DNA of 64,000 nucleotides from Daphnia pulex. Its lineage: Eukaryota > Arthropoda > Branchiopoda > Diplostraca > Daphniidae. Location: contig NC_060026.1 of assembly GCF_021134715.1 (NCBI RefSeq), positions 3,224,001-3,288,000 of the forward strand, in the 5' to 3' direction. Within the stretch, counting starts at the first letter, position 1, and the number at the start of each line of letters is the position of its first letter. The notes beneath the pieces were generated by a model. The model was not told the origin of the DNA and ran no database searches. It worked only from the letters and a program-made list of their open reading frames with translations. The position numbers and the translations under genes were made by a program. Positions 4,644 through 37,719 of this stretch are shown in pieces.

Positions 4644-5894
4644 GTTCTTGTGTCGAATGGAACGTTGAGAGGTAAGAGTTTTTAACACCAATTCACGCTT
4701 AGTTTTCTACAATTAATTTAGCTCTAATTTTATTTAAGAAAATAGGAATTCAGACAAAAACACACGTGTGAAAATGACTAAGATTGGTTGCCAGGCAACA
4801 AAACCAATGGCAAGAATTGTAAGTTGTCCTAATTCCTAAAATAAGTAAGCCCAACCCCAAGTTTTTGCATGCGCTCTGCGCTACTGCGCATGGCCAGCAG
4901 TCCAGCATGACTGGGCAAACTGGCAATGGCACGTTAAATTGTCAATTATTAATTATCGCGGTTCATGTGCGCACAAGGCGTCACGAACTCTATAGGAATT
5001 TTCTCGGAAAAAAATCATTGAATCAGAAAAGAAAAACTTTATTTTAGATCAGGGTAATCAGGGGGTGATTTTAGACCAGGGTGATCGAGATATACATTTA
5101 GAAAGTGCACCAACAATTTCCAGCTTCACCAGTTTCAAGCCTTGCACAAATTTCCCTATTTCAACAACTGGCTCCTTATCGTTACTTTTTTTTTTCGTTT
5201 TCTCTTTGAATTCTTCCCACGAGCCAAATGACCATAAAAAAAGATAAACGCAATTATCCTCTCTTCTTGGGATAAAAGTACTGTAAGACAAGAAAGTAAA
5301 AGTTGAAATATTTCCAAATAACTCTATACAAAAACCAAGTTTTTTAAAAAGATAAAATTCCCCAAAGTTATCGACCTCGATCTTAATTATTATCAATCCT
5401 GAAATTTACCAATTATTTAGTTCATTAGAAGTAAAAAAAAAAAAAAAGTTGAATGTAAAAATGTTTGAATTGCGCAGCAGGAAATCACCTAAATCGAGCA
5501 GCAGATAGGAAAAGTCACATTGAATTTTTACCCCCAACTGTTCAGGGGGTGTTGTTGCCTTTCGTTTATTTTACGATAGGAGTCGATCAGCTGTTTTTGG
5601 GAAGCCAGTTATTTGGCAGCGAGCCATGACGTCACAACGCTCACAACAAAGCCACGTTACACGCGCTGCGATGTTAGTCAACACAAGTAAAGTCGGGAGT
5701 CCCGAGCTCCTGCGCAGACAAAGACCAGCCAGACTCTGAGCCTGACAGTTGCTTCTCTTTCGGCTCTCCAAAAGTCGAAGAAATTTCATCGCAATTAACT
5801 TTTCTTTACTGCGACTAAAACAAAAAATTGAATTTGTAAATTTCACAAGTCCATTTTGATCGTGCGCTAATTTACTACGTTTTAAAACAGCGAA
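4644..5894. other. Intergenic, no recognised gene
   Basis: This holds the 5' flanks of MPHOSPH6 (leftward) and the FBXO gene (rightward). The only longish open frame is 5396-5058 on the minus strand (112 codons, ending in SPWSKITP); it is AT-rich, has no recognisable domain and I do not call it a gene. A GC-richer stretch at about 5630-5720, with a TGACGTCA (CRE-like) site at 5627-5634, probably belongs to the FBXO promoter. Confidence 0.4.
5627..5634. promoter_or_regulatory. CRE-like palindrome upstream of FBXO25/32
   Basis: TGACGTCA, the consensus for CREB/ATF-type bZIP factors, occurs about 260 bp before the F-box gene start codon. Function is inferred from the motif alone. Confidence 0.3.
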
Positions 5895-8800
5895 ATGCCT
5901 TTTTATGCCAAAGATTGGCGTTCACCAGGCGAATCGTGGATCAAAACGGAAGATGGCTGGGAGAAGCTGAAAGTCTTGGAAACTAATCGAAAAAGATTAA
6001 TTACCGACGACGGTGTTTTCTACAGGTTAGTCATCTTATTCATCATCTCTTTTGTTTTGTGTGTGTACATTTTCTGTTGCTATGACGTTTACTTGCTTCA
6101 CTGGAGCGCGTGTTACCTGCTGTCCAATGACACCAGCAAGGCCAATGGCGAAGCTTCCCTGCTGCTCGTGATGCAATCATCACGAACTTTTCTTTGGCTC
6201 AAAAGCGAAGCCAAAAGTGAACTACGTCTTGTTCTCTTTCAGGGTCGTAGATTCTTTCTTTTTTTCTTTTCTTTCTTCATGGGCGAAAATAACCGGATGT
6301 GAGGGCGCTATACCCCCCGTCTATTCTCCTTGCGTTCACTGTCGTGAAATTTTGTTTGATTTAGTTTATCCCTTCCAATTTCTTCACTCGGGGGTTCGTG
6401 ACGGACAGTATACGTTGTTCAAGATTCTTTGGCTGTCGGCCAATTTGATTGCGACTCTTTTTTTATTCTGGAAGGGGGAGGGGGAGGTTGACGGCCTGTT
6501 TGCTCACGCACCCAGCGTGAGCCAAGACGCTATTATCCCGATGTGGGGAAATTTCTTTTCACGACGAGCTGATTGAGAATCGATAAGTAGACTTTAATGG
6601 TCCTCTTTTTGGCGTTCAAAGTTGGGAAGTATTGTAGCTTATTGATATTATCTAGTAGTACTAGAAACGGACCCGCGTTCATTCACGCTGGGCTCTCGAC
6701 ACTTTTCGTTCTCAGCTGATGACGGTGTGGAGAAAATCAATAGGGCGCCCTGGGAAACGTTGCCGTCGTGTTTTCTCATTCTTCCTCCTCCTCCATCCAC
6801 CGTCTGTTATGATCGAAATTGTATGGAATTGAGGGCACAAACCTTAGTAGCCGAGTGACGCAAAAAGTACAGATATAAAAATCGGACGAAATTTCTAAAA
6901 ATCGTGCAGGCTTATGTTTACTACGGGGGGGGAAGTTTGACGATGCCTTTCACGCCCGTGAGAATTGTTACAATGTTCGCTTGACTGCCTGTGCGTGTCC
7001 TTCAATATCCGAACGAAAAATGACGTGTGTTGGTTGAAAAAACTCTTATCGCGCAATTTAGGCGCACATCACGCCAACGAATTTATCGACTAATTGCATC
7101 ATATCATGTTAATAAAATTGGGTCTATTTTTTTTTTGTGTGTGTGTATATTTTTATCCAGGTCAGTAGATGATGACAAAGAAAACTGCGCACTCGATAAC
7201 AGCCCGGAACTCGATAAAACCAAAGGTCAGCTAGCTCATTTCGGTCATTGGCACTTTTTTTTCACGTTACATAATAAAAACATGGCGGTCGTAAAAAAAC
7301 AAAACAAACTCACGTTTTTTCTTTGTGTTTTTTGGGGGTTTCATCAGGTTGCGTTCCACCTCACTGCCAGATCACATTGAAATGCACAAAAGAGGTAACG
7401 TGTAGTCTCTTATTGATATGATCTCCGTCCGTGTGCTGCGTCAAAATAAGTCACGAGCTTGTGAGGTACGATGAAATGATAATAAAAATGTTTTGTTTGA
7501 CTATCGGTATATAGGTGGCGGGTTTCAATGGGCTGAGCGATGCCCTGCGTCGCCTGGATTTCCGCAGCGCCGTTCACGACCACCGACGATTTCCCTACAC
7601 GGCCAAATTGCTGGAATTGTTGCTCTCCCAGCATCGCATCACCAATCTGTCGGGCTGCGCTCAGAAATCGGTTCTCAATGTCCTGGAGGAGATTGCAGTT
7701 CAAGGTAATGATGACGGTGAAAGTCTACATACTAGTTCCGAATAATGTTGTACAGTACATTGAATTATATTTTCATTTTTCCAGCCCAAGGAAGCCAGCA
7801 AAACATGCACGTTCTAGTCAAATTGCTGACTGATTTGCGTACCATCGTACGAGGTGATTCGTGGTGGGGAACACCGCTGGGCTCGTCCCAACTCTGGGGC
7901 AAACACGTCCGCACTATCGATCGTATAGGCGCCATTGCTTCCAGCATTCGTCATGCCGAGGTATAATGCTAGCACATACAAATTTCATAATGATGGTCCT
8001 TATTATCCCATTCCAACTTTCGCCTGTCATCTATAATAACGGCTGATTGTGCGACAAGCGAAAGTTGGAATTGAATTTTTCACGTTCAATCATGAATATT
8101 CCCGGATTCATCCACATCCAGGCAGTTCCTGGCAGTAACGACGGGGATGATAAACCGAAATTCGAGGATTTGCCAGAGGAATGCGTCAGGGAGATCCTGT
8201 TTCGGTTGGCCGATCACCGGGACTTGTTATCGGCGGCGGAAGCGTGCGGAGTTGTTCAGAAGCTGAGCGCCGAGCAACGCTTATGGAAACGCCTCTGTCG
8301 CTTCCATTTCACGCCGGTTCAAATTAGTTTCGCACTCCGGGAGATACAGAAAGAACGGGAGAAACCTCCGTTGAACGTGACGGCAGCCCTTAACAAGAAC
8401 AACCGCAGTAGCCGAACGCCCCATCCTTATCTGAACCCCAGACGCAGTCCCGTCCGTAGTCACGATACGGATTCTTCTAAACCGGAAGAGGTCTATACTT
8501 TCCCCCATATTATCTACTATTTTTAGAATTGACAACATTCTAAAGAGTGGGGGACAATGTTACTTGTTCTTTAGTTACTGGATAACGCCTCATCCGCAGA
8601 TACACGCGGACGTGTATCGAGTGCATTTCACGAGCATTTGAAGCGCCACCGTGAAAATCTATTGAGTCTGCAAAGTGAAGACCAGGACCAGTCGAGCCAT
8701 CAGGTCATTAACGCCAATCACAACCGATTGGTGAGCTTTCAAGACGTCAGGAACCATTTCGATCAGCGGGAAATGTTGGATAACGAGCCCAGGATGAGTC

Positions 8801-12505: not shown

Positions 12506-12511
12506 AATGGT

Positions 12512-12527
12512 GGCCCTGAAAAGGGCC
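12512..12527 (-). terminator. Histone 3' stem-loop of H3 (left arm)
   Basis: On the minus strand this reads GGCCCTTTTCAGGGCC followed by ACCA, the canonical replication-dependent histone mRNA 3' stem-loop bound by SLBP. It lies about 30 bp past the H3 stop codon. Confidence 0.95.
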
Positions 12528-12556
12528 GATTGGTAAGTCAAAAGGGAATAGGTCGC

Positions 12557-13573
<1,017 letters not shown>

Positions 13574-13617
13574 ATTTGATTCCGATTTATTATTTTAACT
13601 CCTGACTCAATCCAATC

Positions 13618-13633
13618 GGCCCTTTTCAGGGCC
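13618..13633 (+). terminator. Histone 3' stem-loop of H4 (left arm)
   Basis: GGCCCTTTTCAGGGCC followed by ACCA, 45 bp after the H4 stop codon. Confidence 0.95.
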
Positions 13634-14210
13634 ACCATTTACTTAAAGAAAAAGATTTCTTAACCACTTTTTAAACCATATTCTTGTCGACTTTATGCTG
13701 CTACAAGAACAAAATCCTTGAATTTTGAATTAATAAGCATCATTCTTTTATTTCATCTTTGAAAGATTTGATTGACATAGCAGGTGTTGGAGCAATGCGT
13801 CCTAAAGGATCTTGTGATCTGAAACTATGTTAATCCAAATAACTCGATCGAAAAATATCGAGATGCTGTTATGTTATTGATATTGTTTTCTCAGATTTTA
13901 CGCAGTATTTTTATTTTTAACTTTCATATTTAACAAAAATCTTCCTTAGTTCCTTAGTATGTAGAAGGAGTTGCTAACGGAGATAAATTTTAATATCAAT
14001 CATTTTCTAAATCAAATGAATATGTAAAATCAACGCATTGAACCGGATCTGCCAAACTTAAAATTCAGCAGAAAGATAGAGAAAAGCTCTTGATCACAGT
14101 ATTTCCTAACGTTCCGTCGCACTAATCAACAATATGGGTTCAGTTTAGAACTCGATTAGATAATAAATGTCAAAAGTAGTTAGATGTTTTTCCTTTCTTT
14201 AAAATTTGGT
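13634..14210. other. Spacer between H4 and H2B, left arm
   Basis: 577 bp of AT-rich DNA between the convergent H4 and H2B genes. I see no H1 gene or other ORF. The same spacer lies inverted at 36066-36642. Confidence 0.6.
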
Positions 14211-14226
14211 GGCCCTGAAAAGGGCC
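14211..14226 (-). terminator. Histone 3' stem-loop of H2B (left arm)
   Basis: On the minus strand GGCCCTTTTCAGGGCC followed by ACCA, 32 bp past the H2B stop. It is also the first strong 3'-processing signal downstream of the retrotransposon's 3' end. Confidence 0.95.
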
Positions 14227-14258
14227 GTTTGGTTTGTAGAGAGAACAAGAGGATCACT

Positions 14259-14630
14259 CTACTTGGTGCTGGTGTACTTGGTCACTGCCTTGGTGCCTTC
14301 AGACACGGCGTGCTTGGCCAACTCACCGGGCAAGAGCAGACGGACGGCCGTCTGGATTTCCCGGCTGGTGATGGTCGACCGCTTGTTGTAGTGGGCGAGA
14401 CGGGACGACTCTCCAGCGATGCGCTCGAAAATGTCGTTGACGAAGCTGTTCATGATGGTCATGGCTTTGGAGGAGATGCCAGTGTCGGGGTGGACCTGCT
14501 TCAACACTTTGTAGATGTAAATGGCGTAGCTCTCCTTCCTCTTGCGCTTCTTCTTCTTGTCGCCCTTGGCGATGTTCTTCTGGGCCTTGCCGGCCTTCTT
14601 CGCAGCTTTACCGCTTACTTTAGGGGGCAT
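14259..14630 (-). CDS. H2B: Histone H2B, left arm, cut off from its promoter by a retrotransposon
   Basis: Intronless 123-residue H2B: basic tail [17 protein letters not shown], histone fold [19 protein letters not shown], and C-terminus [17 protein letters not shown]. Coding sequence and stem-loop are intact and the same as the right-arm copy. A 5.87-kb non-LTR element inserted 23-34 bp upstream of the ATG has moved the TATA box and divergent H2A/H2B promoter to 20.5 kb. The element is in the same orientation, so H2B could be transcribed only by read-through from it or from a new promoter. The right-arm copy keeps its normal promoter. Confidence 0.97.
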
Positions 14631-14652
14631 TCTTGGACTTGGAAATCTCAGA

Positions 14653-14664
14653 AAGTGAAGTCCG
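14653..14664. repeat. Target-site duplication, 3' side of retrotransposon
   Basis: AAGTGAAGTCCG, repeated at 20533-20544. The right arm holds one copy (as its complement) at 35612-35623, which is the empty site. Confidence 0.93.
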
Positions 14665-14683
14665 GTTGGTTGGTTGGTTTTTT
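14665..14683 (-). repeat. AACC-repeat 3' tail of the retrotransposon
   Basis: In the element's sense orientation the 3' end is six A followed by CCAACCAACCAAC and then the target site. A short tandem tail instead of poly(A) is known in I-like elements and suggests slippage during target-primed reverse transcription. Confidence 0.7.
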
Positions 14684-14790
14684 GGGGATGGGGGTTTGAC
14701 GTTTCCAGGCCGGCAGGCCTATTTACGCCACTTGCACATGCGTTTTAGGGAGAAAGCTGGGCACCGGCTTTAGGTTTTTGGTTTCTCTTG

Positions 14791-17700
14791 CTAGAAACCG
14801 AGTCGGGCTTTGATGCCTATGGCATTAAAGAAGTCCAAAACGGCTTTGAGAGTTACCTCGTCGTTGAAATTTAGCAGCTCTTGCAGTGTGGGAGTGTTTT
14901 CGCTCACTACGTACACCATTTCTTCTCGCTCCTTTGCGTACGCCGGGCAGGCCAGCAGTACATGTTCGACATTTTCTTTTTCTTCGGCGTCGCAGTTGCA
15001 GCAGAGACCGGTCGGATGTTTTTTGCGTTTGAACAGACGATAGTTTAGCGGCAGCATGTCGAGGCGAATCTGCGATAAGAACACTTGCTCACTTCTTGAC
15101 TGGCCGAACAGGGAGGCGATTCTTGACACGACTGGACTGTGTCTGTGGGTGAAAAGTCCACATTCCGTTTTCGGCTTGTCCCAGAGGCCTTGCCATTTTT
15201 TCAGGAGGAGGTCTTCAACGTTTTCACGGATGTCGTTTGTGTCTCTTCTGCAGCTGAGGCTAGGTTTTAGCTCCAGCCCATTTTTGGCAGCACGATCAGC
15301 TTGCTCGTTGCCGGATATTCCACTGTGTCCTTTTACCCACGAAAAACTGACAGTTGTGCCAGCTCTGGAGAGTGCTCGCCAGGTGTCCACGGTGCTTGTT
15401 TTGACACTGTTGTTTTCACTACTTGAGTGGAGTATTTGCAATGCCTTTTTTGAGTCTGTTAGGATAACAAAGCTCCCCAGTGTTGCGTGTGCTTCTGCCC
15501 ACTTTACTGCCAGGTGTATTGCTACGAGTTCACACTTTGCTGTCGCCAAACCGTCCACCAGACGCTTCTGCTCAACGATGACTTTCTCTGGTACCACAAA
15601 GGCAACAGCACATCGCCCGTCTTTTGATTTTGCTGCGTCTGTGTAAATGTGGACCACATTTTGCCATTTCAGGTCGTTTGGTGTGTACGTCGTGACTTCC
15701 GGAAGCAAAGCCTGCCATGGCGGGTGCTTGCTGATGGATAATTTCTCGACTGATTTAGGATGATGGTCCAAGGTGTTTGTAACGGACTCGACTCTGGAGA
15801 GAAAACACTGCTCGGCGTTTTTGAACCACTCTTCTTTTTCTGCTAGCAGGTCAGACTTCACCTCGTAGCACCTTAAATAATGTTTGACGCTGGCGAGATT
15901 TCTCCTAAGGTGCAAGGGCATTTCGCCCGTCTCTCGTAGCAGGGCCTCTGTTGCAGTGTCCCTTGGCGCACCCACCACTGTTCTCAGCGCTTGTGCTTGG
16001 ATTTTGTCCAGTTTTTTCTTTGCTGTGATAGAGGCGGACTCGATGAGTTCTCCTCCATAGTCGAGTTTTGAGCGGATCAGAGCCTGGTAGATTTGTAGCA
16101 TGGGCTTTGCGTGTGCGCCCCATTTCGTTCCAGATATGAGGCGTAGTAAATTTAAAACTTTTGAGCACTTGCTGACGACGTCGTCTATTTGTTTGCACCA
16201 ATTTAGTTTGCTGTCGAGTGTCATGCCCAGTAGTTTGATTGACTTTTGCACTTGGATGCTAGCTCCGTCTACTGTGATGCTCAAATTTTCGGGTATATTC
16301 CGCTTGGAAAAAACTATTTCTCCGGTTTTTGCTGCCGAAACTAGGAAGCCCCATAGTCTGAGCTCGACGATAACATCTTGTGTGTCCTTTTCTACCTTTT
16401 TTCTCAGGAAGTGTAAGTTTCGGTGCTTCTGCCAGATGAAAATGTCATCGGCGTACATTCCCGACATACAGGAGCGGCGTTTCTTGGCAATGTCGTTAAT
16501 GAGGATGATGAACAATAACGGGCTGATGACACTTCCTTGTGGTGTGCCGTTTAGGCAGGAGAAGAGCTCGGACCGAGTTCCATTTAACGATACTTGTGCT
16601 GTCCGACCGACCAAAAAGGAGGTAATCCACTTGAGCATGTTGCCTCTTATGCTGAGCTTTTTGAGCTTGTAAATTAGTCCTTTTATCCAGATCATGTCGT
16701 AGGCTTTTTCAAGATCGAGCGTGACTGCCATCACATATCCTTTGTTGTTTAGGGCTGATTGGACCGAATTTTCGAGCCTCACTAAATTGTCCATAGTCCC
16801 TCTGTTTCGTCGGAAACCACTTTGATTTGGGGCGAGGAGGAGATTTTTCTCAAGGTACCAAGAGAGTCTGATTTTAATCATTCTCTCCAGGACCTTGCAT
16901 GGCACCGGGGTAAGCGAGATCGGCCGGTATGACTCCGGTTTCGATGCAGTTTTGTTTGGCTTCAACAAGGGGATGATCAGCGAGTGCTTCCATCCTTTCG
17001 GTAGCGTGCCTTGTTTCCAGGACTCGTTGTACAGGGCCAGTAGCGTACGTAGGGCTGTATCCGGTAGGTGGCGTAGCATTGATAAAGATATTCGGTCGCT
17101 TCCCACTGCTGTATCTTTTGCTTCTTTTAGGGCGGTCGTCAGCTCTTGCATTGAGAAATCTGCATTCATTTCTGCGTCTTCTATCCGTCCGTCCGGCTCG
17201 TCCGCTTCACCATCTTCCATGGACTGTTCGGAAATTCGGCGGTGTTGGAGAAAGGATTCTGATAGGTTGGTGTCACTACTCACTGCTTTGTAATGCTTTG
17301 CAAATAGGTTGGCTTTTGCTGATGACTCCGTAACACACGTCCCATTTTTGTCGAGTAGCACCGAGATCGGTTTTGTTTTGTTGTTTCGCCCCAGCATTTG
17401 GTTGGTTTTTTCCCAGAGATCACGGGACGTTGTGTTCTTGTTTATTGTGCTACAGTGAGCTCGCCAGTGCTCTTTCTTCGCGTTTCGCATCACCGATCGG
17501 CTTTTGTTACGTAAAGTGCTGTATATTTTGTAGTCGTCTGGATTTCTTGATGCGTTTGCTCTCACCCAGGCCTTTTCTTTTTCTTTGATGGCGTCTGCAC
17601 ACGCTGCATTCCACCATGGGACGCCCGGCTTGTGGTGTCCTTGTCGCACGACTGGGATGTGGTTGCTGGCTGCTAGGATGATGGCGTGAGTCACATTGTT

Positions 17701-18534
17701 ATTGAAAACATCAATATCGGTGGAGAAGAGGTCCATGTAGGATATGTCTGCGCACGTTTGAGCAAAGCCGACCCAGTCAGCTTTTTTAAAATTCCACCTA
17801 GAGTTGTTGCTGCGTTCCACGGGGACCGGTATGGCGATGTTTGTCATTACTGGATGGTGATCACTGCCGAACGTTGATTCAGATACGACCGACCAGCTGC
17901 ACTTTGCAGCAATATCTGGCGTTGTTATGGTCAAGTCTAGGACGGAGGATGCTCCTGAACTGGATCTGTACGTTATATTCCCGTCGTTAAGTGCAACTAG
18001 CCCGTTTTCTTCGATGAAAGATACAAGACTGAGCCCTTTGTGGTCGTTTTTCTTTCCTCCCCACATTTCGTGGTGGCTGTTGAAGTCTCCGCACAGAAAA
18101 GGAGTGGAGTCAGGGGGTAAATCTCTGAGGATATTTTCAAAAACTTGCACATCGTTCTCCTGACTTGAGTGGTAGATATTGCAAATGGAGATGCTTTTTC
18201 CGTCGGTGAAAACCTCTACTGCGACTACTTCTAGTGTGGATGGCGGCAGATCAATCTGTCGGAAGGGGGTGCCGATGGCGACAAAAGTCGCTACTCCTCC
18301 TCCAATCCTGTCTCTTCTGTCCGCTCTGATGTGATCGAAGCCGTCAATTTCGAACTCTTTAGACTCGTCTAGCCACGTCTCTTGAATGCAAATAATATTT
18401 GGAGGAGATGTCATTTCAGATAAAAACTTTACGAACTCGGTTCCGTTTGAGTTAAGGGACCTTGCGTTCCATTGGAGTATCCGGATTTGAGTCTTGGGGT
18501 TGTTAAAAGAGAATGCTGTAGATCTGGTCATCAT
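14791..18534 (-). CDS. Retrotransposon ORF2: AP endonuclease, reverse transcriptase, RNase H
   Basis: 1,247 residues. Residues ~15-235 form an exonuclease-endonuclease-phosphatase domain with QWNARS, QET (51-53), GDFN (149-152) and SDHH (224-227). Residues ~500-780 are a reverse transcriptase with SYRPISLTPVPCKVLE, LDLEKAYD, GTPQGSVISPLLF and the catalytic YADD (694-697). A ribonuclease H follows: YTDAAKS, CELVAIHLAVKWAE, LTDSKKAL and WVKGHSGISGNEQADR supply the D-E-D-D/H residues. A CCNC...H...C zinc-binding motif lies near the C-terminus. The ATG overlaps the ORF1 stop as ATGA, implying termination-reinitiation. It makes the cDNA and nicks the target; no breaks are seen. Confidence 0.95.
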   Translation of the reverse strand: MMTRSTAFSFNNPKTQIRILQWNARSLNSNGTEFVKFLSEMTSPPNIICIQETWLDESKEFEIDGFDHIRADRRDRIGGGVATFVAIGTPFRQIDLPPSTLEVVAVEVFTDGKSISICNIYHSSQENDVQVFENILRDLPPDSTPFLCGDFNSHHEMWGGKKNDHKGLSLVSFIEENGLVALNDGNITYRSSSGASSVLDLTITTPDIAAKCSWSVVSESTFGSDHHPVMTNIAIPVPVERSNNSRWNFKKADWVGFAQTCADISYMDLFSTDIDVFNNNVTHAIILAASNHIPVVRQGHHKPGVPWWNAACADAIKEKEKAWVRANASRNPDDYKIYSTLRNKSRSVMRNAKKEHWRAHCSTINKNTTSRDLWEKTNQMLGRNNKTKPISVLLDKNGTCVTESSAKANLFAKHYKAVSSDTNLSESFLQHRRISEQSMEDGEADEPDGRIEDAEMNADFSMQELTTALKEAKDTAVGSDRISLSMLRHLPDTALRTLLALYNESWKQGTLPKGWKHSLIIPLLKPNKTASKPESYRPISLTPVPCKVLERMIKIRLSWYLEKNLLLAPNQSGFRRNRGTMDNLVRLENSVQSALNNKGYVMAVTLDLEKAYDMIWIKGLIYKLKKLSIRGNMLKWITSFLVGRTAQVSLNGTRSELFSCLNGTPQGSVISPLLFIILINDIAKKRRSCMSGMYADDIFIWQKHRNLHFLRKKVEKDTQDVIVELRLWGFLVSAAKTGEIVFSKRNIPENLSITVDGASIQVQKSIKLLGMTLDSKLNWCKQIDDVVSKCSKVLNLLRLISGTKWGAHAKPMLQIYQALIRSKLDYGGELIESASITAKKKLDKIQAQALRTVVGAPRDTATEALLRETGEMPLHLRRNLASVKHYLRCYEVKSDLLAEKEEWFKNAEQCFLSRVESVTNTLDHHPKSVEKLSISKHPPWQALLPEVTTYTPNDLKWQNVVHIYTDAAKSKDGRCAVAFVVPEKVIVEQKRLVDGLATAKCELVAIHLAVKWAEAHATLGSFVILTDSKKALQILHSSSENNSVKTSTVDTWRALSRAGTTVSFSWVKGHSGISGNEQADRAAKNGLELKPSLSCRRDTNDIRENVEDLLLKKWQGLWDKPKTECGLFTHRHSPVVSRIASLFGQSRSEQVFLSQIRLDMLPLNYRLFKRKKHPTGLCCNCDAEEKENVEHVLLACPAYAKEREEMVYVVSENTPTLQELLNFNDEVTLKAVLDFFNAIGIKARLGF

Positions 18535-20231
18535 GTGGCGTCTTTTGACTGGCTGGTTTGTGCACTGGCGGTGCTAACTGCAACGGGGTCGTCTTCTTTC
18601 TTTCTTTTGTTCTTTTTTTTCTTTTTCTTCTTTTCTGGTGTTTTCTGGATTCCTGTAGTGAAGGGAGCAGGTGTAATTTCCTCTTCCTCGACATCGTCGC
18701 TGTCACTGCTTTTGTCGTCTTTGCTGCTGTCGCTGTTTTCACTGCTTTCGTGTGTCAACAGAGCTTTGGCTGCTCCGGCGAGGGTTCTTAGGTGTTGGTT
18801 GTTTGTGCATGCACTCAGGATGTCCATGAATTGCGCCATTATCTTCATGAAGGCTTCCAGCTTTTTTTCTACGCTGGACAATTTATCTTTTCTCCCTCTT
18901 TGCTGTGCCACCTCTTGGAGGGGCTCGGTTGTTTGAGCATTTTTGTCTGGTGATTCGTCGGAGGAGCCTGCGTTTTTCGGTTCCGAGGTTTTTTCTTTTT
19001 GTGTATCGCTCTGATCCGTTGCTTTTGCTGCCGCGGCATATGATTGACCACTTCTTACTTTGGCCACTGCTGCAGATCGAGGGATGTTTTCCACAACTGC
19101 TATTCTGATGACAGCCTTTGCTTCTTTCCACTGGGGGCAGCCACGGAAAGCTGCACTATGGGGGCCCTTGCAGTTTGGGCACTTCCAGTGCTCTCTCGTT
19201 ACCGTGCAGTCTTTGGTGAGGTGCACTCCTCCGCATCTTGCACACCGTTGCTTTCCTCCGCATTCCTTGGCAATGTGTCCCGGCCGGCGACATTTGTAGC
19301 ACTGGGTAGGCTCTGGGATGTATTGGGTTACCCGGTGTATACTGTTCAGTATTTTAACCGAGTCAGGTAACTCCGCCGCTTCAAACGTGACAATGACGCT
19401 GCTTGTAGACTTGTATGGGCCCCCAGGTCGGCTTTCTATGCGCGCAGCGTTTACAATTTTGACGGCGTTGCCCTGGTTGACTGCACTTGCTTCTTCCAGG
19501 AACTCTTCCATAGTAATGAGGTGATGCACTCCATGTACTACACCTTTGCACGTTTTTGGTACCAACGATATGGTCCATGATCCCATGGTTTGGATGGCCA
19601 TCACCTCTAGTAGCTCAGCTGCGCCCGTTGCGACAACGGTTAACGAGCCACCCGGGTTTATCTTCCAGCTGGAGACTGAGCCCTTGCTTACTTGCTCGCT
19701 AAGGCGCTTATTGATTAGAATCGGGCTCACCTTCTTTAGATCTACGATCATGTCGTTTTCTTTTGCTACAAGGCGGGTTTCGAATGAGGTTGTCATTCTG
19801 TTGGCCGGTGGCTGTTTGAATTGTTGGCTTGACTCCGTGGTCGCTTCTGACCTACGGGGAGGAATTGGTGGTGGTTTGCCTCTTGAGGGGAGAGAAGATG
19901 ATTCTGTTTCTCCTGCCGGGCTTGGGGTTTCGATGTCTTTTCTGCCTCGCTTGTTGGACGGTTCTCCTTTTTTTCCTCTTTGCACAATGGTAAAACCCTT
20001 GTCTCGAAGCCACTTATCGGCAGCTGCCTTGCGGCGCCTCCTTTGCTCTTCTTTTTCAGCTTCCGTAGTGGCCTCCTGTTCTTCCTTACGCGATTCCTCA
20101 AAGAAATCTTCTTCCATCGAATCGGGTTCCGGCTCTTCTGCGATCCCCTGCTCGTTGAGCATCAACGGGGCCAGGGACGCCCGAGCGCTAGCGGCGGCCG
20201 CCTTTGCAGCCCTGATCTCCTCTTCATTCAT
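18531..20231 (-). CDS. Retrotransposon ORF1: gag-like nucleic-acid-binding protein
   Basis: 566 residues. The N-terminal ~80 are alanine- and glutamate-rich with a basic patch (EEQRRRRKAAADKWLRDKG), followed by a proline-rich linker (GKPPPIPPRR). The central part resembles the RRM-like region of I/Jockey ORF1 proteins. Three zinc knuckles follow: CYKCRRPGHIAKEC, CARCGGVHLTKDC and CPNCKGPHSAAFRGC. The C-terminus is acidic then lysine-rich. It should coat element RNA and form the RNP that ORF2 joins. The start ATG is the first in the frame and leaves a 301-bp 5' UTR. Confidence 0.92.
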   Translation of the reverse strand: MNEEEIRAAKAAAASARASLAPLMLNEQGIAEEPEPDSMEEDFFEESRKEEQEATTEAEKEEQRRRRKAAADKWLRDKGFTIVQRGKKGEPSNKRGRKDIETPSPAGETESSSLPSRGKPPPIPPRRSEATTESSQQFKQPPANRMTTSFETRLVAKENDMIVDLKKVSPILINKRLSEQVSKGSVSSWKINPGGSLTVVATGAAELLEVMAIQTMGSWTISLVPKTCKGVVHGVHHLITMEEFLEEASAVNQGNAVKIVNAARIESRPGGPYKSTSSVIVTFEAAELPDSVKILNSIHRVTQYIPEPTQCYKCRRPGHIAKECGGKQRCARCGGVHLTKDCTVTREHWKCPNCKGPHSAAFRGCPQWKEAKAVIRIAVVENIPRSAAVAKVRSGQSYAAAAKATDQSDTQKEKTSEPKNAGSSDESPDKNAQTTEPLQEVAQQRGRKDKLSSVEKKLEAFMKIMAQFMDILSACTNNQHLRTLAGAAKALLTHESSENSDSSKDDKSSDSDDVEEEEITPAPFTTGIQKTPEKKKKKKKNKRKKEDDPVAVSTASAQTSQSKDAT

Positions 20232-20473
20232 GTCACCTGCTACCGACAGGTGGCAGTGACAGTGGAAGTGGGGGGTGGGTTTTTGATTTCACTGGGGAAA
20301 AAACAAACACGAGAAATTAAGACTTGATGCCTCCCTTAATTGTCCCAACTTGTGGAACTACAAGAGAGAGCACACTTTGTTTCTTAGATGAGCACTATAA
20401 TTACACACTGATCGAAACTTGTTACACTATATTTCGCAAAGTTATTACGAGCTGCGAGACACAGGTGTACACC

Positions 20474-20481
20474 TATCGATA
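20474..20481. promoter_or_regulatory. DREF-type site TATCGATA in retrotransposon 5' UTR
   Basis: Exact TATCGATA next to the 12-bp palindrome AGGTGTACACCT (20463-20474), about 50-70 bp into the element. TATCGATA is the binding site of arthropod DREF, a regulator of replication-linked genes. A role in element transcription is inferred. Confidence 0.4.
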
Positions 20482-20502
20482 GCAGACGACGTCTCACTCT
20501 GA

Positions 20503-20530
20503 CTCCTTCGCTGATTTTTCAGTGAAGGAG
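20503..20530 (-). other. 5'-terminal hairpin of the retrotransposon
   Basis: Nucleotides 3-30 of the element in sense fold as CTCCTTC, one mismatch, CTGA, an AAAA loop, TCAG, one base, GAAGGAG: an 11-bp stem with a single A-C mismatch at the extreme 5' end of the RNA. Such structures may mark the complete 5' end or act in translation or packaging. Confidence 0.6.
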
Positions 20531-20532
20531 TG

Positions 20533-20544
20533 AAGTGAAGTCCG
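20533..20544. repeat. Target-site duplication, 5' side of retrotransposon
   Basis: AAGTGAAGTCCG, second copy. On the minus strand it overlaps the predicted H2B transcription start. Confidence 0.93.
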
Positions 20545-20830
20545 CTTGTCCGAATTTCTTCTTTATACTGATATCGGCTCCCCTTCACTACTTGATGGTA
20601 GCCAAAACTCTCGTCTCCAGAGACTTGCGTGTATCACGTAGGTGTTCACTCAGGGGCGGAGCTATAGAAAAGGGAAAGAATTTCGAGGCAAGTGAAGATT
20701 TACTATTGGCTACCAAAATTGTATTCTGAATCCAACTTCAAGTCCCTATATAAACGTCGATTTTTCAAATTGTATTCATCACTCGTTCCTTGATTTTAGG
20801 AACCGCGTTTTATCTACTCTCAATCCTAAC
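20545..20830. promoter_or_regulatory. H2A promoter and displaced H2B promoter, left arm
   Basis: Ancestral divergent H2A/H2B promoter. TATATAAA at 20747-20754 on the plus strand serves H2A (ATG at 20831). TATAAAG on the minus strand at 20567-20561 served H2B but now lies about 30 bp upstream of the retrotransposon 5' end, pointing into it. The intact arrangement is at 35326-35645. Confidence 0.85.
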
Positions 20831-21211
20831 ATGTCTGGTCGTGGTAAAGGAGGCAAAGTCAAGGGAAAGTCAAAGACTCGTTCCAGCAGGGCCGGACTTC
20901 AATTCCCCGTCGGTCGTATCCATCGAATGCTCCGCAAAGGATCGTACGCTGAGCGTGTTGGTGCCGGTGCCCCCGTCTACTTGGCTGCCGTCATGGAGTA
21001 CTTGGCCGCTGAGGTCCTCGAGTTGGCCGGTAACGCCGCCCGTGACAACAAGAAGACCCGCATCATCCCTCGTCACTTGCAATTGGCCATCCGCAACGAC
21101 GAAGAGTTGAACAAACTTCTCTCCGGTGTCACCATCGCTCAGGGTGGTGTTTTGCCCAACATCCAGGCCGTTCTCTTGCCCAAGAAGACCGACAAACCCG
21201 CCAAGGCTTAA
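20831..21211 (+). CDS. H2A: Histone H2A, left arm
   Basis: Intronless, 126 residues, [19 protein letters not shown] at the start; the histone fold [20 protein letters not shown] and the acidic-patch segment [12 protein letters not shown] are intact. It ends [12 protein letters not shown] with no SQ(E/D) tail, so it is canonical H2A rather than H2A.X. TATA box and 3' stem-loop are present. Confidence 0.98.
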
Positions 21212-21234
21212 ACTTCTCCCGTCTTTTAATAAAC

Positions 21235-21250
21235 GGCCCTTTTCAGGGCC
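21235..21250 (+). terminator. Histone 3' stem-loop of H2A (left arm)
   Basis: GGCCCTTTTCAGGGCC followed by ACCA, 24 bp after the H2A stop. Confidence 0.95.
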
Positions 21251-23727
21251 ACCAATTTATTTTGGAAAAAAGGAATTTGCTGAGTGCTATATTTCGAACT
21301 TAGTTTATTGCGCACTTCATTTTAATCTAGTTGTGGAAATGATAACGTGCATGTTGTCTGATTCGCAATGGGGTACGCTTGAATTGTTTTTGTTTCAACC
21401 TAATTCTTGGTATATGAAACGGTAAATGGCAGTACTACTACAAATAAAAGTTGTTAATTAATCACTTCAATTTTTTAAACCATTTCTCTTTTGAACTTAC
21501 CACTGCCCGATAACTTTCTCCTGATGTCGCGAAATGGGATAATAAGTTATGTGGCGAGGATCTACGTTGATTTTGTTCACTTTATTAGCGAGTTATTGAA
21601 CGTCACATGCCTTATTTTAATAAATGAAACAGCTCTTCGAGGTTTGCTGTCATTTTAATTCGTCCCCATTTAAAAATTAAAAAAGTAATTGGGTAAATAA
21701 ACTCCGTTTGGTATCGTTTGGTGTCGCTAAAATCGCATTGTGTTGTTATGTCGAAAGTTCGTGCTGCTTTCTTTTTCTTTTTTCCCTTTGTTTTTTGAAA
21801 AAACAACACCATATTAAATGTTAGTGTTCTTAACTGATTCTAGAACCTGCCTAGTTTATACCAACATCTTTTTTCTATTTGAATTCTAGATTGCGAGCTT
21901 TCAACAATGTCAGGTTTTCTCACCATACTACAACTAATGACTGAACTGTTTTTCATCTATCTGATCAATCCTTCTGATCTTTCTACTGTGAAAATCATCT
22001 TTACTTATCAGATGTTAGAATGAGATACAGATACAGGTAAACATACAGACTTTTCTTAACTAAACACAGTTTCACTTGAACTATGTATGACTTTGAATTA
22101 GGTGCCTTCAGCAGTGTGGAGTTAAATTGCTGTTACACTGTGCTGTATTTCTTGATCACTTGAAAGCAACTTGACACTAAAAGAGGTAAACATTTGTCGC
22201 TGTTTTCTTCCAAAAGCATTTAAAAGAACTTCATTATTTTGATGTGTATTTCAGAAATATGCCGATGGCTACACAAATAGTATCCACATATTCTTCTTTA
22301 TTAATCCGTAGCCCTAATGGGATATGTGAGCAGGATAGCACCTCCCTGGAGTTACCCTAGCCCGGTAATGGTAAGGTTTTACTAGATCACACAATAGTAG
22401 TTCTGGCTTTTTAAAAAGTGAAACTTTATTTGCTTAGTCGATTGTTGTCGGCTTCTAGAATTTTTTCCATCTCTTCTTTGTGCCTTAGTTACTCTCATTT
22501 CTTTTTTTTTGTTTGTTTTGCCCTTGGTTTTCCAAACGCGCTTCTACAGTTACAGATTAACCGGAAATCTCCTCCCCATTACAAGGGTAAAAGAAACATC
22601 GACATCGAAATGATCCTTCTTTGCAATTAAAAATCTTTTTTACATTAAGTTCCCGAACTTATGCCCAAATTTGACCGTTTTTTCCTTCGAGTAAGTTATA
22701 AACTAGATTTGCTTAAAAGCGTTGTATGTGTGAAAATCACAACCTCCAAATCTCAGAGAAATTTAATATTGTTGTTGATCAAACTTTGTTTTCTCTGCGC
22801 GTAGAAAAAGTTAGCAGTGACTTAACCGTCCACAAATCCACTCCATTTCTAAAAACCTTGGAATTTGATTTTTAATGAATAGATCAGATTGCGTAGCATT
22901 TAGTTGATTCCCGCACTACTAGAAACTTTTGAAAAGTCGTAGTAGACACGTTAAAGCGTTGCAGCTCCCACAATCGAATAATCCAACGAAGATCCCCATA
23001 AGGCCTTGCCACCTTGATATATTTTACCACCATTCGTTTTCCCTGTGCATTTGCATTTTTGCCAAGGTGACTTAAAAACTGTGCCATTCCCCGGTGACTA
23101 CGAAGTGAATGCTTTCGGCGAAATAAAAGCTTTGACACTGATGTTACTTATTGTTGACTGATTGTAACTTAATGTTGTTTGTTTTTTGTTTTCAAGGATC
23201 AAGGACTGACGCCGATTATCACCTTCAGATCTGCAGATTGAAGCTTTAGCTGTTTGTGGTGCGTTGCTTGATTCTTGGTGACGACGGGATGATCGTAATT
23301 TGGTGAGTAGATGAGGCGTAAGTCTTGAGCTCTTTTGTTTTGAGACCTCTGTTGCTTGAAATCAATCGTGTGTCGACGAGTTAGAGCGTTAACGTCAGTT
23401 TTCAACTTTCTCCTTTACTATTTCTTATTTTTAATGCTAGATTGCTATAACATGGTCTTTGGTCATTTCCCAGTCAGTTTCAGTTACTTTATACATCTCT
23501 AAATACTTTATTGGCAATTACTATAAGGTAATTTGGGGTGATAACTGATAGTAACAGTTCCAGCGACAAAGCTCACTTGTTAAATTTTCGATTAATATCC
23601 ATTTTATTTACTTCCGGTTCTAGTTAAGAGTTCTATAAATATTCATTTTGACGCTCAAAAGAAACAGGTTTTCGTGATCCTCGTCCAATTTGGGGTTGAT
23701 TTATTCACGTATCAGTAAAAAATATCG
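21251..23727. other. H2A-proximal 2.5 kb of left arm, no recognised gene
   Basis: Present almost unchanged as 32429-34905 in the right arm. Small open frames (22418-22630 plus; 23138-22884 and 23405-23199 minus) are intact in both arms but have no domain I know. A GC-richer island at 22307-22375 breaks the AT-rich background and could be a small RNA gene, though I could not match it to any family. Confidence 0.4.
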
Positions 23728-23935
23728 TAAAATCGCTTAATTTGTATTTCGTTTAAAATCACACCTAAGCGACCGCAAATCTCATAGAGATCACGAATTT
23801 TTGGTTTAATTTGACGACAGCGTAATGGTTAAAGCGCTTTCGCTTACTTCCGGTTTTTTCCGGAAATTTTTCTTAAAACTATCAATTGAGCTTTGTTCTG
23901 CTTACAGTTCTCAATACTGTATTGCAAGCGTGCAA
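23425..23935 (+). repeat. Dispersed repeat, copy A (spans palindrome inner boundary)
   Basis: About 510 bp that match, with many substitutions and small indels, 25350-25549 plus 29723-30075. Shared landmarks are CAGTCAGTTTCAGTTACTTT, CAAAGCTCACTTGT, GGTTTAATTT.ACGACAG and GAGCTTTGTTCTG. The palindrome's inner edge (23727) is inside it, so the right arm carries only its first part. No ORF; family unknown. Confidence 0.75.
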
Positions 23936-31078: not shown

Positions 31079-31945
31079 CTAGTAACTATTGAGATATGAC
31101 CAACAATTATGAACACAAGATAAATTAGAAATTTCGGCTCTGGTATGTAAAACCTCCCTGTAGTAAACTGGAGAAGCGAAGGTAGTGATGTAACATTCAG
31201 GTGCCTTGGCGGTGTAGTAACTCTGGGCAGTGGAATACTTCGCAACTTCGGTGCAGTAGGTCGAGTGCCATGGTTGTGTAGTGCTTGGAAGCATCGGTAT
31301 TGGAGCGGAGCCTCGGCATGGTAGCTGAGGGCAGCGTGGGTTGTAGTGCAACATGCGAACTCGTCGATGTAGTACTTGGGTGCCTTGATGTATTAGCTAG
31401 GTGTAGCAAGGTGCAGCTTAAGTTGTAGTGAAGTAAACTGGAGCCTCAGTATAGCATTTCGGTCCAACGTAGTACGAAGGAGCAACCGCGTGAAGTAATT
31501 CGGGGCAGAGCAGTACTTGGGCGCTTCGGTGTAGTTTTTGACCGCGTTGTGGCGTAATAAGCTGGAGCCTCGGTGTAGCTAGGAACGGACTAAAAGGCTG
31601 GGGCAGCATACGCAGTGGTGTAGTACTCCGCTGACTTGGTGGTGTAGTACTCCGCTGACTTGGTGGTGTAGTACTCCGCTGACTTGGTGGTGTAGTACTC
31701 CGCTGCCTTGGTGGTGTAGTACTCCGCTGCCTTGGTGGTTTGTTATTCATCATACCCAAGAGACATCGGTACCCCAGTAGTCGATCCAACCATCAAGGAT
31801 ACAACCAACAGCAGCACGACACCATAGTTAACTAGACGGTAGTACGTAATTTGAACATCAATTTTTAATCATAACTGGCATATTAACAAACAAACAAAAT
31901 ATTAAAGTGATACAAAACTCCATGTAAAAAAATAAAATTCACCAT
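31079..31945 (-). pseudogene. Decayed tyrosine-rich (YYTT-repeat) secreted protein gene
   Basis: On the minus strand the first ATG (31945-31943) sits at an exon end before GTGAAT; exon 2 begins at 31831 after CTAG. It encodes a hydrophobic leader (VVLLLVVSLMVGSTTG) that reads only after a frameshift, then an in-frame stop before TTKAAEYY repeats. Further along are TEAPAYYATT, YTEAPKY, YTEAPVYFTTT, KAPKYYIDE and SYYTAKAPECYITTFASPVYY, spread over different frames with several stops. This is the repeat style of cladoceran tyrosine-rich extracellular proteins; the exact function of the parent family is unknown to me. Frameshifts and stops make it a pseudogene. Confidence 0.7.
31614..31733 (-). 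repeat. 24-bp minisatellite, five units, within the pseudogene
   Basis: Five tandem 24-bp units starting at 31614, 31638, 31662, 31686 and 31710, of the type GGTGGTGTAGTACTCCGCTG plus ACTT or CCTT. On the minus strand each encodes TTKSAEYY or TTKAAEYY. Confidence 0.9.
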
Positions 31946-32032
31946 TTGGTTGCGAAACGGTATTACGATGAAGAATGCAGTTAGTGACAAATAGTCCACA
32001 GCAGTTGTTGCCGTGTCGGAGATGCTCACTCG

Positions 32033-32067
32033 ACTGATTTCCGACGCCTTTTCTCTCTCCTTTTATA
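32033..32067 (-). promoter_or_regulatory. TATA box and initiator of the tyrosine-rich pseudogene
   Basis: On the minus strand TATAAAAGGAG (TATA at 32067-32061) is followed about 31 bp later by ATCAGTCGAG, an arthropod TCAGT initiator (32037-32033). Spacing is canonical, so the core promoter looks intact despite the broken coding sequence. Confidence 0.65.
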
Positions 32068-32096
32068 CGACTTTTTCTCACCCTGACCCCTCTCTT

Positions 32097-32215
32097 AAGC
32101 CTTACGGCTATTGTACCTGCTTGATAATGATGCAACACGTGTCGTCCTCACCCAACCTCTCCCCCGTCGCATGACACGTTTTACGTTAAGATCTCCGTGA
32201 CCTTCGAGCGTGAAG
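32097..32215. repeat. Tandem duplicate block, copy 1
   Basis: AGCCTT(A/G)CGGCTATTGTACC, GCTTGATAATGATGCAACACG and a GACCTTC(G/A)AGCGTGA end are shared with 32305-32422, about 208 bp away. Confidence 0.8.
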
Positions 32216-32304
32216 GAAATGAAAACTGGCCTTTCCTTCTTTAGGTTGACGTCGTTAGGGATGGGTCTACAAAAACCGAATATCAAAATGAATACAAAAT
32301 GGCT

Positions 32305-32422
32305 GAGCCTTGCGGCTATTGTACCTGCTTGATAATGATGCAACACGTCCAATTCTCACCCAACCTCTACACCACCGCATTGACAGTTTTACACGTTATG
32401 TTCCCCGCGACCTTCAAGCGTG
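32305..32422. repeat. Tandem duplicate block, copy 2 (abuts palindrome)
   Basis: Second copy of the block; it ends 6 bp before the inner edge of the palindrome's right arm. Confidence 0.8.
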
Positions 32423-32428
32423 ATTTTC

Positions 32429-34905
32429 CGATATTTTTTACTGATACGTGAATAAATCAACCCCAAATTGGACGAGGATCACGAAAACCTGTTTCTTTTG
32501 AGCGTCAAAATGAATATTTATAGAACTCTTAACTAGAACCGGAAGTAAATAAAATGGATATTAATCGAAAATTTAACAAGTGAGCTTTGTCGCTGGAACT
32601 GTTACTATCAGTTATCACCCCAAATTACCTTATAGTAATTGCCAATAAAGTATTTAGAGATGTATAAAGTAACTGAAACTGACTGGGAAATGACCAAAGA
32701 CCATGTTATAGCAATCTAGCATTAAAAATAAGAAATAGTAAAGGAGAAAGTTGAAAACTGACGTTAACGCTCTAACTCGTCGACACACGATTGATTTCAA
32801 GCAACAGAGGTCTCAAAACAAAAGAGCTCAAGACTTACGCCTCATCTACTCACCAAATTACGATCATCCCGTCGTCACCAAGAATCAAGCAACGCACCAC
32901 AAACAGCTAAAGCTTCAATCTGCAGATCTGAAGGTGATAATCGGCGTCAGTCCTTGATCCTTGAAAACAAAAAACAAACAACATTAAGTTACAATCAGTC
33001 AACAATAAGTAACATCAGTGTCAAAGCTTTTATTTCGCCGAAAGCATTCACTTCGTAGTCACCGGGGAATGGCACAGTTTTTAAGTCACCTTGGCAAAAA
33101 TGCAAATGCACAGGGAAAACGAATGGTGGTAAAATATATCAAGGTGGCAAGGCCTTATGGGGATCTTCGTTGGATTATTCGATTGTGGGAGCTGCAACGC
33201 TTTAACGTGTCTACTACGACTTTTCAAAAGTTTCTAGTAGTGCGGGAATCAACTAAATGCTACGCAATCTGATCTATTCATTAAAAATCAAATTCCAAGG
33301 TTTTTAGAAATGGAGTGGATTTGTGGACGGTTAAGTCACTGCTAACTTTTTCTACGCGCAGAGAAAACAAAGTTTGATCAACAACAATATTAAATTTCTC
33401 TGAGATTTGGAGGTTGTGATTTTCACACATACAACGCTTTTAAGCAAATCTAGTTTATAACTTACTCGAAGGAAAAAACGGTCAAATTTGGGCATAAGTT
33501 CGGGAACTTAATGTAAAAAAGATTTTTAATTGCAAAGAAGGATCATTTCGATGTCGATGTTTCTTTTACCCTTGTAATGGGGAGGAGATTTCCGGTTAAT
33601 CTGTAACTGTAGAAGCGCGTTTGGAAAACCAAGGGCAAAACAAACAAAAAAAAAGAAATGAGAGTAACTAAGGCACAAAGAAGAGATGGAAAAAATTCTA
33701 GAAGCCGACAACAATCGACTAAGCAAATAAAGTTTCACTTTTTAAAAAGCCAGAACTACTATTGTGTGATCTAGTAAAACCTTACCATTACCGGGCTAGG
33801 GTAACTCCAGGGAGGTGCTATCCTGCTCACATATCCCATTAGGGCTACGGATTAATAAAGAAGAATATGTGGATACTATTTGTGTAGCCATCGGCATATT
33901 TCTGAAATACACATCAAAATAATGAAGTTCTTTTAAATGCTTTTGGAAGAAAACAGCGACAAATGTTTACCTCTTTTAGTGTCAAGTTGCTTTCAAGTGA
34001 TCAAGAAATACAGCACAGTGTAACAGCAATTTAACTCCACACTGCTGAAGGCACCTAATTCAAAGTCATACATAGTTCAAGTGAAACTGTGTTTAGTTAA
34101 GAAAAGTCTGTATGTTTACCTGTATCTGTATCTCATTCTAACATCTGATAAGTAAAGATGATTTTCACAGTAGAAAGATCAGAAGGATTGATCAGATAGA
34201 TGAAAAACAGTTCAGTCATTAGTTGTAGTATGGTGAGAAAACCTGACATTGTTGAAAGCTCGCAATCTAGAATTCAAATAGAAAAAAGATGTTGGTATAA
34301 ACTAGGCAGGTTCTAGAATCAGTTAAGAACACTAACATTTAATATGGTGTTGTTTTTTCAAAAAACAAAGGGAAAAAAGAAAAAGAAAGCAGCACGAACT
34401 TTCGACATAACAACACAATGCGATTTTAGCGACACCAAACGATACCAAACGGAGTTTATTTACCCAATTACTTTTTTAATTTTTAAATGGGGACGAATTA
34501 AAATGACAGCAAACCTCGAAGAGCTGTTTCATTTATTAAAATAAGGCATGTGACGTTCAATAACTCGCTAATAAAGTGAACAAAATCAACGTAGATCCTC
34601 GCCACATAACTTATTATCCCATTTCGCGACATCAGGAGAAAGTTATCGGGCAGTGGTAAGTTCAAAAGAGAAATGGTTTAAAAAATTGAAGTGATTAATT
34701 AACAACTTTTATTTGTAGTAGTACTGCCATTTACCGTTTCATATACCAAGAATTAGGTTGAAACAAAAACAATTCAAGCGTACCCCATTGCGAATCAGAC
34801 AACATGCACGTTATCATTTCCACAACTAGATTAAAATGAAGTGCGCAATAAACTAAGTTCGAAATATAGCACTCAGCAAATTCCTTTTTTCCAAAATAAA
34901 TTGGT
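32429..34905. other. H2A-proximal 2.5 kb of right arm, no recognised gene
   Basis: Mirror of 21251-23727. Small frames at 32751-32957 and 33018-33272 (+) and 33738-33526 (-) are unchanged between arms; I recognise none of them. Confidence 0.4.
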
Positions 34906-34921
34906 GGCCCTGAAAAGGGCC
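34906..34921 (-). terminator. Histone 3' stem-loop of H2A (right arm)
   Basis: GGCCCTTTTCAGGGCC on the minus strand, followed by ACCA. Confidence 0.95.
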
Positions 34922-34944
34922 GTTTATTAAAAGACGGGAGAAGT

Positions 34945-35325
34945 TTAAGCCTTGGCGGGTTTGTCGGTCTTCTTGGGCAAGAGAACGGCCTGGATGTTGG
35001 GCAAAACACCACCCTGAGCGATGGTGACACCGGAGAGAAGTTTGTTCAACTCTTCGTCGTTGCGGATGGCCAATTGCAAGTGACGAGGGATGATGCGGGT
35101 CTTCTTGTTGTCACGGGCGGCGTTACCGGCCAACTCGAGGACCTCAGCGGCCAAGTACTCCATGACGGCAGCCAAGTAGACGGGGGCACCGGCACCAACA
35201 CGCTCAGCGTACGATCCTTTGCGGAGCATTCGATGGATACGACCGACGGGGAATTGAAGTCCGGCCCTGCTGGAACGAGTCTTTGACTTTCCCTTGACTT
35301 TGCCTCCTTTACCACGACCAGACAT
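34945..35325 (-). CDS. H2A: Histone H2A, right arm
   Basis: 126 residues, identical to the left-arm product at 20831-21211, including the ending [12 protein letters not shown]. Intronless, divergent from H2B across an uninterrupted 320-bp promoter, with its own stem-loop. Confidence 0.98.
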
Positions 35326-35645
35326 GTTAGGATTGAGAGTAGATAAAACGCGGTTCCTAAAATCAAGGAACGAGTGATGAATACAATTTGAAAAATCGAC
35401 GTTTATATAGGGACTTGAAGTTGGATTCAGAATACAATTTTGGTAGCCAATAGTAAATCTTCACTTGCCTCGAAATTCTTTCCCTTTTCTATAGCTCCGC
35501 CCCTGAGTGAACACCTACGTGATACACGCAAGTCTCTGGAGACGAGAGTTTTGGCTACCATCAAGTAGTGAAGGGGAGCCGATATCAGTATAAAGAAGAA
35601 ATTCGGACAAGCGGACTTCACTTTCTGAGATTTCCAAGTCCAAGA
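35326..35645. promoter_or_regulatory. Intact divergent H2A/H2B promoter, right arm
   Basis: TATATAAA for H2A on the minus strand (35409-35402) and TATAAAG for H2B on the plus strand (35589-35595). The 12 bp duplicated by the left-arm retrotransposon are at 35612-35623 (CGGACTTCACTT), 23-34 bp after the H2B TATA. They include a TTCACTT initiator-like site with A at 35620, the expected H2B transcription start. Confidence 0.85.
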
Positions 35646-36017
35646 ATGCCCCCTAAAGTAAGCGGTAAAGCTGCGAAGAAGGCCGGCAAGGCCCAGAAGA
35701 ACATCGCCAAGGGCGACAAGAAGAAGAAGCGCAAGAGGAAGGAGAGCTACGCCATTTACATCTACAAAGTGTTGAAGCAGGTCCACCCCGACACTGGCAT
35801 CTCCTCCAAAGCCATGACCATCATGAACAGCTTCGTCAACGACATTTTCGAGCGCATCGCTGGAGAGTCGTCCCGTCTCGCCCACTACAACAAGCGGTCG
35901 ACCATCACCAGCCGGGAAATCCAGACGGCCGTCCGTCTGCTCTTGCCCGGTGAGTTGGCCAAGCACGCCGTGTCTGAAGGCACCAAGGCAGTGACCAAGT
36001 ACACCAGCACCAAGTAG
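35646..36017 (+). CDS. H2B: Histone H2B, right arm
   Basis: 123 residues, same product as the left-arm copy, [17 protein letters not shown] to [10 protein letters not shown]. The frame is open upstream into the promoter, but the ATG at 35646 gives the conserved start and lies downstream of the TATA box and predicted start site. This is the copy with a normal promoter. Confidence 0.97.
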
Positions 36018-36049
36018 AGTGATCCTCTTGTTCTCTCTACAAACCAAAC

Positions 36050-36065
36050 GGCCCTTTTCAGGGCC
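36050..36065 (+). terminator. Histone 3' stem-loop of H2B (right arm)
   Basis: GGCCCTTTTCAGGGCC followed by ACCA. Confidence 0.95.
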
Positions 36066-36658: not shown

Positions 36659-36702
36659 GATTGGATTGAGTCAGGAGTTAAAATAATAAATCGGAATCAA
36701 AT

Positions 36703-37719
<1,017 letters not shown>

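Follow-up and report, generated by a model that had tools for sequence, protein, structure and literature searches.

A Daphnia pulex LINE that probably integrates at TATA-type start sites

In target-primed reverse transcription by LINEs, the 3' junction of a new copy marks the first nick, which is made on the strand complementary to the element. R1 and TRAS1 have two ORFs with an AP endonuclease, and their choice of target is sequence-specific; R1, TRAS1, SART1, and R2 each target one sequence, in rDNA or in telomeric repeats, and R1 and R2 rely on the transcription unit of the host. The LTR retrotransposon Tf1 and the P element insert near Pol II promoters, within a broader window and with different enzymes. 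For TRE5-A, a non-LTR element of Dictyostelium with an AP endonuclease, one report describes insertion ~47 bp upstream of tRNA genes, interaction of the ORF1 protein with TBP in vitro, and frequent non-templated bases at the 5' junctions (PMC5391098).

The window analyzed here is a stretch of 64,000 nucleotides of Daphnia pulex DNA with two inverted histone arms. A LINE separates the H2B coding sequence from its TATA box in one arm, and the other arm is empty. The LINE is full length (5872 bp) and occupies positions 14665–20536 of the minus strand, with a 5' boundary ambiguous by 4 nt and a 3' boundary ambiguous by 1 nt. The interrupted H2B is on the same strand, and the insertion is therefore in sense. 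The H2B TATA box (TATAAA, 20562–20567, minus) is now upstream of the LINE, which is flanked by copies of the target-site duplication CGGACTTCACTT at 20533–20544 (5', minus) and 14653–14664 (3', minus). The H2B coding sequence (14259–14630, minus; 123 aa) is intact and separated from its TATA box, and the histone 3' stem-loop of the same unit is at 14187–14231 (minus, RF00032). In the inverted arm, the TATA box (35589–35594), a single copy of CGGACTTCACTT representing the empty target, and the uninterrupted H2B coding sequence (35646–36017) are all on the plus strand. These features bear out the initial annotation, which had placed a retrotransposon in sense at the H2B start, in a 12-bp target site that contains the predicted start A and has its empty copy at 35612–35623 (plus). 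The insertion point is 23–24 nt after the H2B TATA, and the predicted start A, at 20536, falls within the 5' copy of the duplication (20533–20544).

At the 5' junction there is a 4-nt overlap (ACTT), and the sequence common to the full-length copies begins at 20536, inside the duplication. This position is the A of TTCACTT, the 32nd base when the T of TATA is counted as 1, and it is predicted to be the real H2B start site. The arms pair as 12506–14668 with 35608–37770 and as 20533–23734 with 32422–35623; by ungapped comparison they differ at 7 of 2163 and 1 of 3202 positions, respectively, or 8 mismatches over 5.4 kb. Because the arms are nearly identical, the empty H2B site is a close paralogue of the occupied one. 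Their near-identity also points to a duplication or gene conversion that would have been recent and would have preceded the LINE insertion.

Both ORFs of the LINE are intact. ORF1 (18531–20231, minus; 566 aa) contains a CCHC zinc knuckle (PF00098, 2.1e-4; 21.7 bits vs. a cut-off of 20.8). ORF2 (14791–18534, minus; 1247 aa) is an open frame encoding an AP-type endonuclease (EN; PF14529, 9.5e-25; Exo_endo_phos, PF03372, 5.3e-14), a reverse transcriptase (RVT_1, PF00078, 7.4e-38), and RNase H (PF00075, 4.7e-15), with a weak C-terminal match to zf-RVT that fell under its cut-off. The best solved match to the EN domain was TRAS1 (E 2e-9). The 126-nt 3' UTR (14665–14790, minus) ends in AAAAAACC(AACC)n in place of poly(A), and neither AATAAA nor ATTAAA was present in it. 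EN with RVT_1, RNase H, and a CCHC-type ORF1 form the I-group-like layout of an AP-endonuclease LINE, and the target-site duplications and 5' truncation found among the copies are further characters of such elements. We consider it very probable that this is an AP-endonuclease LINE, intact and recently active, with TATA-type start sites as its targets.

Inspection of the 5' UTR by eye revealed no recognizable promoter. The 5' leader forms a predicted hairpin of −44.3 kcal/mol over 161 nt (z −2.9); a search of the window with Rfam at the gathering threshold gave only histone stem-loops and no ribozyme. In a search for an origin of the leader sequence ACTTCACTCCTTCACTGAAA elsewhere in the genome, the three full-length copies were joined only by matches with 2–3 mismatches (24 places in all vs. 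17 for the reversed control). No relatives of the element were found in viral contigs and plasmids.

Copies were sought in the 133-Mb assembly (13 contigs). A 701-base query taken from the 3' end matched at 9 places and a query of the final 134 bases at 8; every candidate of the first look was scored in both cases. These genome searches identified eight copies with a recognizable 3' end. A 20-base pattern from the 3' end had 17 matches, which were the eight copies at 0–1 mismatch and nine places at two mismatches, and its reversed control had 3 (1+2). The nine were rejected as copies; their similarity ends with the pattern (at most 24 nt), and they are therefore unrelated.

Three copies are full length, those in the window and at loci L010 and L011. 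Relative to the window copy, L010 has 0 differences in 5872 positions and L011 has 2 in 5872, both at the final two positions of the tail. L014 (97.8%) is close to full length, and L012, L013, and L015 lack 2815, 4579, and 2267 bases of the 5' end, respectively. Two more places are decayed: L016 (the same as L008; 90%) stops inside the element, and L017 (the same as L009) retains 130 bases at 93%. L016, having no intact 3' end, was left outside the site counts; L017 has a 3' junction and a left flank that does not match the target, and was left outside the TATA count. The family is young and small.

Duplications of 8–16 nt were found at five copies and a long one at L013. Because the duplicated target is present on both sides of the truncated copies L012 and L013, we conclude that these were 5'-truncated on insertion. 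The 5' side of L015 abuts interstitial CTAACC telomeric repeats and a C-run, and its 5' loss may be later than insertion; L015 and L017, whose 3' flanks are alike, may be descendants of one event. The 5' junctions of L011 and L012 are untidy and contain filler. At L012 (~4819–4829), reverse-complementing AGCAAAATC from the neighboring duplication gives the filler GATTTTGCT, a pattern that would fit an end folding back on itself while the second strand was being made. At L013 a leader of ~84 nt, duplicated at 6508–6593 and again past the element, has copies that differ slightly; this repeat would be either an unusually long target-site duplication or the product of exchange between paralogues.

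To compare the target sites, empty targets were rebuilt by joining the flanks, and distances to the 3' junction were counted starting at the first base of the TATA-like box; they are given as ranges where bases are common to tail and target. At all seven readable sites, a TATA-like box began 21–24 nt before the 3' junction. The box was an exact TATAAA at five of the seven, with the junction at 23–24 in H2B, 22–24 in L010, 21–22 in L012, 22 in L013, and 22–24 in L015; the other two had TATATT (L011, junction at 23–24) and AATAAA (L014, junction at 22). For L015 the script found no duplication, and its spacing was obtained by manual reading of L055, an intact unit of the subtelomeric repeat. For L010 the empty site is preserved in a paralogue (L052) that is 100% identical over the 311-base query. 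The mean match to TATAWA peaked at 20–24 nt (3.3–4.0 of 6) and was 1.6–3.0 at other distances between 8 and 35.

Past the junction we found TCAGT in L010, L012, L013, and L015, TCACT in H2B, and TCATT in the 3' flank of L017. An initiator-like TCA with its A 7–12 nt beyond the junction was thus present at five of the seven sites (H2B, L010, L012, L013, and L015) and absent from the expected place in L011 and L014. The bases immediately after the junction differ among sites (GGACTT, AGAGAC, AGATAA, GAAGCA, GACAGG, TGGAAA, and ACTAAG), and beyond the TATA spacing and the TCA no further common motif was obvious by eye. The second cut, as judged from duplication length, was 3 nt past the initiator A in H2B and L012, before the A in L010, and far downstream of it in L013. 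The 8-nt duplication of L010 stops short of the initiator A and so does not span the start; in this copy the first base common to the full-length copies is the 29th from the start of TATA.

The sites represent five target types: H2B, the YYTEAPK family (three copies), a homeobox gene, the L011 locus, and a subtelomeric repeat. At all five sites with a recognized gene the element is in sense. L010, L012, and L013 each precede a gene with YYTEAPKYYTTKAP-type repeats, recognized by eye, that belongs to a multicopy family; the one member tried had no match in Pfam. All 40 scored candidates for the L010 flank (the best 40 of 852) matched it. Several members of this family occur as inverted pairs ~6–12 kb apart, and the window itself has an apparent member at ~31418–32420 (minus) with TATAAAAG, ATCAGT, and a repeated upstream block. 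The gene downstream of L014 is a homeobox gene (Homeodomain E 1.8e-15 after two exons had been joined manually). L015 is within a subtelomeric tandem repeat containing TATA, TCAGT, and AATAAA, which may be an LTR; in its arrays the repeats are spaced mostly 3.5–3.9 kb, and the unit has its own TATA/TCAGT. At L011 no gene was recognized by eye in translations of the 8 kb downstream, nor did three stretches of flank match Pfam. ARAGORN found no tRNA genes in the eight loci L010–L017 or in the window. These insertions rewire genes: the TATA-like box has been separated from an H2B unit in one case and from a homeobox gene in another.

Judged from these sites, the target is TATA-type start sites and not histone genes. 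The initial annotation had suggested that the target sites of other copies be compared, and the spacing at all seven readable sites supports the targeting that it had proposed. Its suggestion of a preference for histone start sites was not upheld, with only one of the eight copies at a recognized histone gene. Promoter capture, which it had also proposed, stands as far as geometry is concerned in all three full-length copies, of which L011 has the imperfect box TATATT; the full-length, S-phase-timed element RNA that it foresaw is a prediction from this geometry.

The frequency of this spacing by chance was estimated from 112.8 kb of the window and flanking sequence, both strands. An exact TATAAA began 21–24 nt upstream of 0.23% of background positions, and the loose motif (TATAWA with one mismatch allowed) occurred in that interval at 5.3% of them. 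The chance of exact TATAAA at five of seven sites is ~1e-12, and at three of five target types ~1e-7; with the loose motif it is ~1e-9 for seven of seven sites and 4e-7 for five of five target types. The interval and motif were set after seeing the sites, which makes these probabilities optimistic, and the sample is seven events in five target types, with three events in one high-copy gene family; we judge that no reasonable correction would erase the significance of the spacing.

Two other LINE families of the same genome served as controls. None of their four sites, a small number, had an exact TATAWA at 21–24. One family (L030 and L031) has a CCAACCAACCA tail, similar to that of the element, and ~30% protein identity in ORF2; the other (L047 and L049) has a poly(A) tail. 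At control site L049, AATAAA occurs at 22 nt, and this is also the box of L014. L031 is within a THAP-type coding sequence, read by eye. The pattern CGTCGTCTGCTAT, shared by the element (at base 46) and the L047/L049 family (at the 5' end), was rejected as a meaningful link, its frequency being that of the genomic background (19+21 matches vs. 24+21 for the reversed pattern, with up to 1 mismatch).

Could these sites arise without targeting of a promoter complex? The H2B insertion alone could be a coincidence of an ordinary LINE landing by chance, but six other readable sites have the same spacing, and this explanation is hardly credible. Insertion might instead be broadly random, with only the promoter-captured copies surviving or being noticed. 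Full-length copies do need a promoter, and none was recognized by eye in the 5' UTR; yet L012 and L013, from which 2.8 and 4.6 kb of the 5' end are missing, could have gained nothing from a promoter and kept the spacing. L015 also lacks 2.3 kb, although that loss may be later. In addition, all eight copies found were inspected, whatever their location. We consider survival of this kind very improbable. Because the truncated L012 and L013 keep the TATA spacing, the enzyme or a guide appears to pick the site, a point in favor of targeting over the survival of expressed copies. L011 and L014, with imperfect TATA boxes, are the weaker cases for targeting.

A more serious alternative is that the endonuclease itself reads DNA sequence or shape, such as a bendable TATA-like stretch roughly two helical turns away from the cut, and that the promoter location is a by-product. 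Some AP-endonuclease LINEs, in the Tx1 and R1 clades, do pick targets by sequence, according to a published account (PMC4640811), and the resemblance of the EN domain to that of TRAS1 fits this possibility. Against it, the bases after the junction differ among the seven sites, two of the seven boxes are imperfect, and all five recognized genes were hit in sense at the predicted start. We regard sequence recognition as unlikely, while giving it considerably more weight than the two explanations above. Because the sites have no common cut motif and yet the same distance from TATA, positioning by an initiation complex is the best reading: very probably, the LINE integrates at TATA-type start sites, presumably those of RNA polymerase II, and is most likely guided there by the initiation complex.

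Integration could proceed as follows. The endonuclease would nick the template strand of the host 21–24 nt past the start of TATA, ~7–12 nt before the initiator-like A where one is present, and reverse transcription would begin at the nick, which would leave the element in sense. The initiation complex, assembled or open, would most likely set the position of the cut, by way of TBP/TFIIB/Pol II or of the melted bubble. Each full-length copy would thereby come to lie downstream of a core promoter, and the host gene would supply the start and probably 3' processing. The order of the nicks, the tether to the initiation machinery, and transcription from the captured promoter are what we infer from this arrangement; RNA from the captured promoter would be expected for the window copy, L010, and L011 (short leader). 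The stretch between the cuts resembles the bubble of a Pol II open complex. We offer, tentatively, a more specific version, in which the open Pol II initiation complex might be the landing platform, with the template nick at the upstream edge of the bubble, copies in sense and driven by the promoter of the host, and the 5' end of the element set by where its RNA begins. In the window copy, the base predicted as the H2B start coincides with the first base common to the full-length copies.

If this is true, recognition of Pol II core promoters by a LINE would add a new class of target, would account for the way in which a LINE might remain expressed from borrowed promoters, and would provide a natural means of writing DNA into start sites with a fixed orientation. 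Among the matches listed from the open-access literature, none described a LINE that targets Pol II start sites. The element resembles R1 and TRAS1 in its two-ORF AP-endonuclease layout, and R1 and R2 in its presumed reliance on a host transcription unit; unlike the target-specific members of the R1 type, it is not confined to one fixed repeat and was found at five target types with only promoter geometry in common. With Tf1 and the P element it shares a preference for Pol II promoter regions, but these do not use target-primed reverse transcription. TRE5-A is placed at a fixed distance from a start complex that contains TBP, and the Daphnia element, at seven of seven readable sites, at a fixed distance from a TATA-like box, where a complex of this kind may assemble. 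TRE5-A targets Pol III genes from outside, whereas the Daphnia element lies within the start region of TATA-type, presumably Pol II, genes and in sense, and none of its loci L010–L017, nor the window, had the adjacent tRNA gene of a TRE5-like insertion. By analogy, TRE5-A is the closest precedent for positioning guided by a complex.
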